From NCBI GenBank assembly GCA_005798445.1, contig SYJG01000062.1, forward strand, positions 1-44,747: a DNA stretch of 44,747 nt, given 5' to 3'. This stretch comes from Planctomyces sp. (lineage in GTDB: Bacteria; Planctomycetota; Planctomycetia; Planctomycetales; Planctomycetaceae). The translations under genes were made by a program, and so were the position numbers. How positions within the stretch are numbered: position 1 is the stretch's first letter; each line of letters opens with the position of its first letter. Shown here piece after piece: positions 31,624 through 34,415 of this stretch. The notes below the pieces were generated by a model. It was not told where the DNA came from. It saw nothing but the letters and a program-made list of their open reading frames with translations, and did not search any database.

Positions 31624-31674
31624 TGACGCTCCGTTTTCGGACTGCCAGCGGCTGGGGCGTTCACCGACTTGATC

Positions 31675-32976
31675 TCACACGACCTTCGGAAGTTCGAACC
31701 CATTGCGATGCTCGCGGCCGAGGAGTTTGTTGGCGGCGGGATCGTCGAACGATTCGGTTTCAGGGTCCAGTCGCAGCTTCTTGCCGGTGCGCCAAGCGAT
31801 GTTGCCGGCGTGGCACATCAGCGAACTGACGTGCCCCGAATAGAGTTCCTGGTTGAGCGATTCGCGTTTGCGGCTGCGAACGGCGTCGAGAAAGTTGCGA
31901 ATGTGGACCTGCTGGGCTTTTTCCAGACTGCTGCCGCCTTCTTTGATGACTTTGCCCGCCGCGTCGTAGGCGATCCACTTCGAGTTGGTCAGCAGCATCC
32001 AACCGGTCTCGCCGTAGATGGCCGCACCTTCCGTCGCATTAAACAGTTTCGGCCGAGACCACAGACGCATCTCGTATTGGATGATCTTGTCCGGGTACTC
32101 GTAGTTGACGAGCATCGTGTCGGGCCACTCTTGGTCGTCCTCTTTGAAGAAGAACTTGCCGCCGGCACACGAGACCGACTGCGGCATACCGTCCAGGCCC
32201 ATGACGGCGCGGCAGTAGTCGATGCGGTGGACGCCGTCGTTGCCCAGGTCGCCGGTGCCGTAATCGAACAGCCATCGCCAAGCGCCGCCGACGATCGATG
32301 CGTTGAACGGCCGCTCGGCCACCGGACCTTGCCAGATGTTGTAATCCAGGCCGCTGGGAGGCGAGCCGTTCGGGGCCAACCGAACTTCGCGGTTGCGGTC
32401 CGTTTCCCAAGCTTTGCCGTAGATCACTTTGCCCAGCCCACCGCTCCGGATGAACTCGGTGGCTTCGTGGAGGAACGCCGCGCTGCGAATCTGCGTCCCC
32501 ACCTGCACCATGCGATCGTGTTTGCGAGCGGCGGCAACAGCCGTCTTGCCTTCCACGATGTTGTGGCTCGCTGGCTTTTCGACATAAACGTCCTTGCCGG
32601 CCAAGCAACCATGAATCGTCAGCAGCGCGTGCCAATGATCCGGCGTGGCGACCATGAAGACGTCGATCGACTTGTCGTCGAGCAACTCGCGAAAATCATT
32701 GACCAGCTTTGGCGCAACTCCGGTCTTCTGCTTCATCTCCTCGCCGCGCTGTTTGCGGACCGGCTCGTTGACGTCGCAGAGGTGCGTGATGACGCAATCC
32801 GGTTCCGCCGCGAAGCTGTGCATCACCGAATTGCCTCGGCCACGGACGCCAATACAAGCGACGCTGATTTTTTCGTTTGCCGCCACAGCGCGGCCCGTCG
32901 ATGCGGCACTCACGCCGATGCCGACACCCAGAGCCGCCGTCTGTTGCAGAAACTTGCGACGCGAATTTCGAGACAT
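31675..32976 (-). CDS. Tat-exported Gfo/Idh/MocA family oxidoreductase
   Basis: A 433-aa protein. The leader MSRNSRRKFLQQTAALGVGI has a clear Tat motif RRKFLQ. The NAD(P)-binding core follows: SVACIGVRGRGNSVM, then DVFMVATPDHWHALLTIHGC and the key catalytic lysine motif VYVEKPASHNIVEG. The C-terminal domain carries GDLGNDGVHRIDYCRAVMGL, including the His usually involved in proton transfer. The family oxidises or reduces sugars and sugar derivatives with NAD(P). Tat export of a folded, cofactor-loaded enzyme is common in planctomycetes. ATG 32976 was chosen since GAGGGG precedes it. The selenoprotein candidate lies 33 bp upstream on the same strand, and the beta-helix gene follows. Confidence 0.94.
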   Translation of the reverse strand: MSRNSRRKFLQQTAALGVGIGVSAASTGRAVAANEKISVACIGVRGRGNSVMHSFAAEPDCVITHLCDVNEPVRKQRGEEMKQKTGVAPKLVNDFRELLDDKSIDVFMVATPDHWHALLTIHGCLAGKDVYVEKPASHNIVEGKTAVAAARKHDRMVQVGTQIRSAAFLHEATEFIRSGGLGKVIYGKAWETDRNREVRLAPNGSPPSGLDYNIWQGPVAERPFNASIVGGAWRWLFDYGTGDLGNDGVHRIDYCRAVMGLDGMPQSVSCAGGKFFFKEDDQEWPDTMLVNYEYPDKIIQYEMRLWSRPKLFNATEGAAIYGETGWMLLTNSKWIAYDAAGKVIKEGGSSLEKAQQVHIRNFLDAVRSRKRESLNQELYSGHVSSLMCHAGNIAWRTGKKLRLDPETESFDDPAANKLLGREHRNGFELPKVV

Positions 32977-33009
32977 GCTGTTTCCCCTCATAATAATGCC
33001 ACGGGACTT

Positions 33010-34356
33010 TCACTCTCCCGTCGCGAAGTAGGCCGGATTGGGCGTGTCGTATACGACCGACGCACGCGGCGGAACGCGGTCCGCCGGAGCTTTGCCCGAG
33101 ACCAGCTCCATCGAGATGCCGACCGGATACCGGCCGGGACGATAATTGAAGTGGTGATCACCCCAAGGTGTGCCGTAGGCGTCCCCGAGCGCGATGACGT
33201 CGAAGCGAGTGAAGGCGTTTGCCCGGCGATCCCAGGTCAGATCGCCGAGGACGATCGGCTCGAAGCCCTGGACCGATCGGCCTTCGCGTTTCCCTTTGCG
33301 ATCTTCTTTGTCCGCTGTGGCGAAGTCTGCGCCCAGAGCAGCCGAACCTTCCAGGCGGAGGTGGACAAGCTCGGCGGAAACATCAGTCACGGTCAACGTC
33401 AGCGAACGCGAGCGCACGTCTCGCTTGTCGCAAATGCCGCACTCGCCGTAAGCCATGCCCAGGATCAAGTGAGCCCGCGTCATGCGATCGGCCACGGCTT
33501 CGAGCAGCGGATAAGTGTCGCCCGGTTTCGGATCAGGCCGCACGATCGACTGCCACTCGGCTTCCTTGATCCACATGGAGTCCGGCTGCGCTTCCCAACG
33601 TTCGCCGTAATGAGTGAGCCAGTCTTCCGGCTCTTTCAACGCGGGATAATCGCTCCGTCGAGCTTTGCGCAGGCGACCATTCTCCTCGCGCGTCAGCAAG
33701 CGGTGATAGGTGCGCAGGATCAAGGCGTTTGCCGGAGGCGCGATCGAAGTCACGTTGGCAGCCACAGGAACGGTCGCGTCGATCTTGTCCGCGCCGGGCT
33801 GGCGCTCATCGTCAGTCAACGATTGCCATTTCTTCAAGATGCCCTGCAGATCGCGGCGGTTATGTTCCGTTCCGCCGGCCGCGTAGAACGAACCGAGTCG
33901 AACGCCGCTGGCGGTCAAGCATTCGATGTTGCCTCCCGCGCCCGCGAGCTTGATGCCAGTCTCGCGCAGAAACTCCCCTTCCGCATCCTTGCGATTCATG
34001 GCGACATGACCGGACACGGCCACGGCGACGAATTGCTCCTTGATGATCTTGGTCATCTCGTCGGTCCACATCGCGGTCCCACGGACCGCACGGCCGCCGC
34101 TTCAACAACCACCGACAGGCGGTGCTCCGCCGCCCGACCACAACAGAATCGGTTTCCCCTCCGCCGCGGCTCGCCGACGTGCGTCTTGCAGACTCGTCAA
34201 CCACTCGACTTCGCGCCATCTCGATTCGCCAACGTGAGGACGAATGAGTTCGCGCAGCGAGCCAAACTGATCGGCCGCGAGACTGTCCTGCGCGTGCAGC
34301 GCTGAGGCCGCTGTGCAAAGAAGAATGGCCGCGAACCAAGTCTTGCGTACTGACAT
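33010..34356 (-). CDS. Exported thioredoxin-like protein with in-frame Cys-UGA: candidate selenoprotein
   Basis: Reads as one 448-codon frame broken by a single TGA (34102-34104). Upstream: GGAGG at 34356, a signal peptide (TWFAAILLCTAASALHA), then a thioredoxin-like start (VEWLTSLQDARRRAAAEGKP, ILLWSGGGAPPVGGC) ending at Cys84. Codon 85 is TGA. The frame then goes on, with no shift, as SGGRAVRGTAMWTDEMTKII, KEQFVAVAV and a further 330 residues ending PNPAYFATGE. The layout AxxxGKPILLW...C...FVAVAV is that of thioredoxin_7-like folds, so the UGA falls at the redox site. A 7-bp hairpin follows at SECIS spacing. Alternatives are a nonsense mutation, or a second protein begun at ATG 34071, which lacks a ribosome site. 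Selenocysteine is inferred. Confidence 0.72.
34073..34089 (-). promoter_or_regulatory. SECIS-like hairpin after the in-frame UGA
   Basis: In the minus-strand transcript GCGGUCC, loop GUG, GGACCGC form a perfect 7-bp stem. Counting the U of UGA as 1, the loop is G23-U24-G25. In E. coli fdhF the SelB-contacting loop bases are also G23 and U24. The bulged U17 of fdhF is not present (C17, paired). Confidence 0.55.
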
Positions 34357-34415
34357 GCTCGTTTCCTCCGATTTCGCGAAAGATCGTGTTAGGTTCCTGG
34401 CGGTGATCGCCGAAA

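Follow-up and report, generated by a model that had tools for sequence, protein, structure and literature searches.

An adjacent pair of cysteine and selenocysteine (Sec) is known from mammalian thioredoxin reductase, in which the motif GCUG is located in the C-terminal tail of the flavoenzyme. The gene described here has the same adjacent arrangement, but the pair would lie in the thioredoxin-like domain of an exported protein.

Among the catalogued families, two come closest to this gene. VPGUxxT (NF041383, NF041382) comprises thioredoxin-like selenoproteins, as the present protein is predicted to be, and matches it weakly and locally over the N-terminal domain; its motif, however, is VPGU (cut-offs 275 and 350 bits), whereas the family reported here has GGCU or PLGCTU. 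The protein itself passes no NCBIfam cut-off, the nearest model being VPGUxxT (NF041383) with 12.3 bits against 275, and the best score among seven relatives is 17.5 bits, again with VPGUxxT, against cut-offs of 275 to 350. Trx7/PDZ (NF041199) shares a Cys-Sec motif and probably a Thioredoxin_7-type domain, and relatives match it weakly (up to 13.3 bits, below its cut-off of 300 bits), while no match is listed for the protein itself; the Trx7/PDZ motif is CxxU in the available part of a recent selenoprotein inventory (PMC13188914), and the PDZ match is absent from the family reported here. Thioredox_DsbH (PF03190) and Thioredoxin_7 (PF13899) probably belong to the same fold class and are likewise matched weakly by relatives, but they contain CxxC, whereas the present family has CxU or CU and an extra C-terminal domain. 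That planctomycetes can possess Sec genes and selenoproteins is already known, as the accessible part of PMC4807772 reports.

The gene is located on the minus strand of contig SYJG01000062.1 of a Planctomyces sp. assembly (GCA_005798445.1); the window, by which we mean the whole stretch of DNA that was analysed, has a length of 44,747 nucleotides. Its features are as follows.

33010..34356, minus strand: whole gene, 448 residues with UGA85 taken as Sec; under purifying selection before and after the TGA
34365..34369, minus strand: GGAGG ribosome-binding site, 8 nt upstream of the ATG at 34356 (by eye)
34291..34356, minus strand: predicted signal peptide MSVRKTWFAAILLCTAASALHA, residues 1-22 (by eye; the N-terminus is hydrophobic in the listed relatives too)
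34105..34107, minus strand: codon of Cys84, the putative partner of Sec (133 of the 136 gene records have Cys one or two positions before Sec)
34102..34104, minus strand: TGA, codon 85, probably read as selenocysteine; conserved in relatives
34073..34089, minus strand: candidate SECIS hairpin GCGGUC-CGUGG-GACCGC, its loop beginning 18 nt past the UGA (place, covariation and codon choice)
33817..34275, minus strand: thioredoxin-like domain, approximately residues 28-180 (models and PDB comparison; weak Pfam matches in relatives)
33013..33723, minus strand: beta-rich C-terminal domain, approximately residues 212-448 (model)

The reading frame and its surroundings

The original prediction described a frame that opens with a signal peptide and a strong ribosome-binding site, reaches Cys84, encounters the TGA and continues in frame for about 360 codons. 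By eye, both the signal peptide and the ribosome site are present, the coordinates are right, and 363 sense codons follow the TGA before the frame ends at a TGA stop (33012-33010, minus strand). The two nearest relatives are 88 and 77% identical to the protein. Selection to keep the downstream frame, a point raised with the original prediction, is evident: 3' of the TGA, dN/dS amounts to 0.076-0.201 in nine of nine related gene pairs, a set in which some genes are used in several pairs, some dS values exceed 1 and the two nearest genes are included. In seven of these nine pairs dN/dS is lower after the TGA than before it, and in all nine more than half of the substitutions occur at third codon positions.

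An open frame of 878 amino acids on the plus strand (31669-34305) overlaps this gene and the one after it; we take it as a shadow frame, given that substitutions follow the minus-strand codons. The next gene, a Gfo/Idh/MocA oxidoreductase (31675-32991, minus strand), begins 18 nt past the end of the selenoprotein gene. Among 30 loci with flanks of up to 1.5 kb, it is found close by in one other genome only (G114, 94.5% identical), and it was dropped as a clue to function. A phage collection yielded no match.

Conservation of the UGA codon

The protein translated through the UGA was searched against 170 genomes of the same taxonomic family and gave matches in 28 of them. From these, 30 loci were fetched and 28 translated, two (L041 and L046) being skipped because the match stops short of the UGA. 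A single TGA stands at the column in 26 of the 28; of the other two, L034 has Cys, and L048 is a different, short thioredoxin, which was left out of later analyses as unrelated, together with L044, which is cut at a contig end. The gene's own branch comprises eight genes (L022-L028 and L050), all of which have the TGA.

A second search was blind to the codon in question, as its query started after the TGA. In 80 of 80 loci, the best 80 of 112 relatives, the codon preceding the matched region is TGA; all 80 fall on the sister branch, which has Cys-x-Sec, and none on the window gene's own branch. The alignment of homologues proposed with the original prediction has given TGA in 26 of 28 and in 80 of 80 loci. 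By label, which is not always reliable for such genomes, 24 of the 80 loci belong to Verrucomicrobiota (one of them to Kiritimatiellia) and most others to Planctomycetota. A profile search across the phylum gave matches at E<=0.001 in 151 of 392 sampled genomes, the weak ones among which may be non-members. Judged from these comparisons, the gene is no lone case but one branch of a large family of Planctomycetota and Verrucomicrobiota. A second family member, L051, occurs in the same genome (C37:7231-8352, plus strand); it belongs to the PLGCT-Sec type, contains a single TGA and has the hairpin described below.

The cysteine partner and the branches of the family

The CxxC motif of the thioredoxin superfamily, or its forms CxxU and UxxC, is not found in the family; instead, Cys occupies position -2 or -1 relative to Sec. 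Of 136 UGA gene records, 121 have Cys at -2 and 12 have it at -1, whereas three have it at neither position and none at both; these records exclude L080, which equals L051, and L094, which begins on the contig side of the UGA. The majority form is therefore Cys-x-Sec, and the gene in the window belongs to a branch with adjacent Cys-Sec. The eight genes of this branch (GGC-U, GAC-U and GMC-U) cluster in a single supported group (98/99) among the Cys-x-Sec rows of a tree whose root is unsure and in which L118, L120 and L198 are labelled CxU though Cys is missing from their pair. With the same reservation about the root, a remote set of L045 and L049 (ASGHC-U) is placed far off. L045, L047 and L049 are UGA genes with the motif ASGHC-Sec-ATA and the hairpin CAGGUC-CGUGG-GACCUC, and they are perhaps another selenoprotein family.

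Cys forms are very rare. Only one, L034, was encountered among the sequences read; it is full-length and has the motif HPLGCSC, shows by eye no SECIS-like hairpin of the family type, and comes from a genome (G141) in which neither SelB nor tRNA-Sec exceeds its cut-off. Eight stop-free relatives that were fetched (L110-L117) lack both Cys and Sec at the pair and are relatives that have lost it as a whole; having been picked for the absence of a stop, their share represents no frequency. In two genomes (G274 and G323), a gene devoid of Cys and Sec at the pair shares a contig with a UGA form.

A SECIS-type hairpin downstream of the UGA

The original prediction made no mention of an RNA element, and the hairpin adds evidence at the RNA level. 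According to the available part of PMC13188914, the bacterial SECIS model comprises an apical loop of 3-9 nt on an upper stem of 4-16 bp, with G in the first or second loop position, mostly followed by G or U, and flanks able to pair; the distance from UGA to loop is 16-37 nt and the minimum free energy (MFE) -7.5 kcal/mol or lower. The hairpin in the window falls within each of these ranges: it can be drawn with 6 bp and a 5-nt loop, or with at least 7 bp and the loop GUG; the loop C-GUG-G has its G where the model places it; the spacing is 18 nt, or 19 if the C-G pair closes; and the MFE is -20.9 kcal/mol for 46 nt.

Family-wide, the place of the hairpin is fixed. The 136 records reduce to 118 distinct sequence windows, because some genes were entered twice. 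In 99 of these 118, a stem of 4 bp or more occurs at the exact place, compared with 784 of 35,376 control windows taken from family genes, and the loop CGTG is present in 93 of the 118, all of them among those 99. A hairpin of strict form anywhere 15-40 nt along is found in 106 of the 118 (682 of 35,376 controls) and is lacking in 12. When the register is slid, the hairpin remains in 0-6 of the 136 records, against 117 of 136 unslid.

Both the pairing and the choice of codons point to the RNA. In 23 aligned sequences, both partners vary in five of the six stem pairs. The alignment scores 0.694 for covariation; shuffling lowers this to 0.210, with none of 500 shuffles as high as the real value, and a slid register yields no more than 0.111. 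This set consists of 22 of 35 diverse windows, 13 with another or no hairpin having been dropped, and of L024; as it was chosen for the CGTG-type hairpin, which favours structure, the codon test weighs more. Among distinct windows from the first search and named loci, 83 of the 85 genes with Arg in the loop encode it by CGT (15.1 expected from the same genes), 68 of 73 encode the Ser of the hairpin by TCG (17.9 expected) and 72 of 74 encode its Asp by GAC (39.1 expected). Protein coding by itself does not explain this bias.

Folding stability behaves differently. After the UGA it is not unusual across the family, with 7 of 25 sequences falling into the lowest tenth and 11 into the lowest quarter, and the fold in the window reaches a z of only -1.7 to -2.0. 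The argument for a SECIS element is carried by fixed place, covariation and codon choice, and not by stability. An Rfam search of 33900-34300 gave three sub-threshold matches, with no SECIS family among them.

Selenocysteine machinery in the genome and among relatives

The search for Sec genes in the same genome, suggested with the original prediction, was answered fully for the proteins and in part for the tRNA. Genes for selA (518.6 bits), selB (340.4 bits) and selD (296 bits) are present, each above its curated cut-off, and the SelB protein shows winged-helix and beta-barrel SelB domains. A search for tRNA-Sec (RF01852) found none above the cut-off in this assembly; ARAGORN identified eight of the ten near matches listed as tRNAs for Ser, Leu, Phe and Cys. 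When the tRNA-Sec from another genome of the genus served as a DNA query, nucleotides 1-46 of 93 were recovered, 100% identical to that copy, on another contig (C190; L077 2577-2622, minus strand), followed by unrelated sequence; the 3' half has no match anywhere in the assembly, while the 5' flank matches two relatives. We read this half gene as an assembly break or the scar of a mobile element. The assembly is a draft of metagenome type, with 553 contigs and 5.34% contamination. It also contains two tmRNA matches over the cut-off (C338:7918-8273 and C292:7450-7804), possibly a sign of contamination. Among same-genus relatives, 9 of 11 have a tRNA-Sec of at least 55 bits, and ARAGORN called four such loci tRNA-SeC with anticodon tca, two of them from this genus beside the query.

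Among the 170 genomes of the taxonomic family, the UGA form was counted as strong at E<=1e-20 with the TGA (n=22), and tRNA-Sec was scored at a threshold of 55 bits, which 59 genomes reach, the cut-off of 47 bits being reached by 68. SelB exceeds its cut-off in 20 of the 22 genomes with a strong UGA form and in 43 of the 148 others (Fisher 3e-8), tRNA-Sec reaches 55 bits in 17 of 22 and 42 of 148 (Fisher 2e-5), and either of the two is present in 22 of 22 and 47 of 148 (Fisher 2e-10), p-values that overstate independence because the genomes are related. In the two strong-UGA genomes with no SelB over the cut-off, partial matches to SelB score 196 and 208 bits.

Protein fold and likely role

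In the model that places the thioredoxin-like part at roughly residues 28-180, the loop around Cys84 and TGA85 (residues 78-95) has a pLDDT below 50. A model of the N-terminal domain has a pLDDT of 67.7 and, compared with the PDB, gives a list led by thioredoxin-fold chains, including a Thermus thioredoxin, a Thioredox_DsbH protein, AGR3, an ER thioredoxin-like protein and DsbH, with a best E of about 1e-3 and none below 0.001. The protein itself matches no Pfam family at E<=10; weak matches of relatives are to Thioredox_DsbH (38 of 54, best E 9e-4) and Thioredoxin_7 (27 of 54, best E 1.8e-3). The C-terminal domain, beta-rich and conserved, has no confident PDB match, and neither the whole model nor a sequence profile gave anything useful in PDB comparison.

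Taken together with the models, the product is most likely an exported thioredoxin-like thiol oxidoreductase. Export is suggested by the N-terminal sequence; given the signal peptide and the Cys-Sec pair, an envelope thiol-disulfide or peroxide-reducing enzyme would be the likeliest role, a redox function to which both the fold and the residue pair point.

Weighing the alternative explanations

The conservation of the TGA, the selection downstream of it, the SECIS-type hairpin and the presence of selA, selB and selD all support the central claim of the original prediction, and we strongly infer that the UGA at codon 85 inserts selenocysteine. The contig stems from the draft assembly described above, which could favour a pseudogene, a sequencing error or a chance nonsense mutation at codon 85; this reading is refuted by the TGA conserved across two phyla, in relatives from many genomes, and conflicts with the purifying selection downstream, so that practically no probability remains for it. 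A frame interrupted by TGA could also encode two proteins, an 84-residue product ending there and a second one restarting at the ATG at 34071, which opens a frame of 353 amino acids. The original prediction had seen no ribosome site before this ATG, and none is clear by eye. The Met is present in the three closest genes only; F, L, Y or W takes its place in the next five genes (L025-L028 and L050), so that restart is not a family trait; the hairpin is situated exactly between the TGA and this ATG, and the domain model spans the TGA. We have rejected the restart, which we consider highly improbable. The frame, still open past the TGA, would equally suit a UGA that specifies some other amino acid, by a changed code or by Sec-free read-through. 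The gene itself, however, stops at a TGA, the translated relatives all contain just one internal TGA, at the same place, and the hairpin and the link to SelB and tRNA-Sec favour Sec; a changed genetic code was rejected on these grounds, and the chance of any such amino acid is as slight as that of a restart.

More weight belongs to the possibility that the protein is a selenoprotein but no redox enzyme, its Cys-Sec pair serving in metal or mercury binding or in structure. Several families with a CU motif in the inventory are linked to metals or mercury (SaoL, HgcA and MbdU; Table 1 of PMC13188914, in its available part), and the C-terminal domain resembles no known structure confidently; the thioredoxin fold class and the majority form Cys-x-Sec, however, are better suited to redox exchange, and we regard a non-redox role as unlikely, though clearly less so than the preceding readings. 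The preferred reading is that of an exported selenoprotein with a redox-active pair. SelB bound to the hairpin would bring Sec-tRNA to codon 85, the protein would be destined for the cell envelope, and Cys84 and Sec85 would alternate between the selenol-thiol and the selenenyl-sulfide state, the cycling of the pair providing thiol-disulfide or peroxide-reducing oxidoreductase activity. As a whole explanation, we assign it a probability of about 0.85.

Novelty and implications

The 2026 inventory of 119 families (Table 1 of PMC13188914, in its available part) contains no fitting entry when compared by name, motif and domain identifier rather than by sequence, and its accessible text mentions neither planctomycetes nor Verrucomicrobiota. 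No description of the family was found in the available parts of PMC13188914, PMC12013277, PMC2398784 and PMC1088965 or in the open-licence literature searched. The accessible part of PMC4807772 does not describe it either, though its supplementary selenoprotein table for two planctomycetes might list a member. What appears to be new is a thioredoxin-like selenoprotein family with an unusual residue pair and very few Cys forms, absent from the catalogues searched.

Ordinary gene-finding programs stop at the UGA in genes of this kind, and a widespread family of two environmental phyla may thus be missing from databases or truncated in them. With very few Cys forms, it also escapes searches that require Cys counterparts; in the Sargasso Sea study, a TGA frame was kept only with at least two Cys homologues, according to the available part of the text (PMC1088965). 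Tentatively, and with somewhat more doubt than conviction, we suggest that the family is almost Sec-obligate and keeps the Sec trait alive in both phyla, and that the branch in the window is a separate envelope catalytic type with an adjacent pair. A Sec-obligate family would have hardly any Cys counterparts and mostly Sec forms, with some members having lost the whole pair.

The change from Cys-x-Sec to adjacent Cys-Sec can be followed within this one family. In most members, the constant spacing of 18 nt and the CGUG loop are combined with varying stems, which provides a natural data set for the rules of SECIS elements. One member, L185, lies in a complete genome (CP036526, Planctomycetes bacterium K23_9), which makes the family testable.
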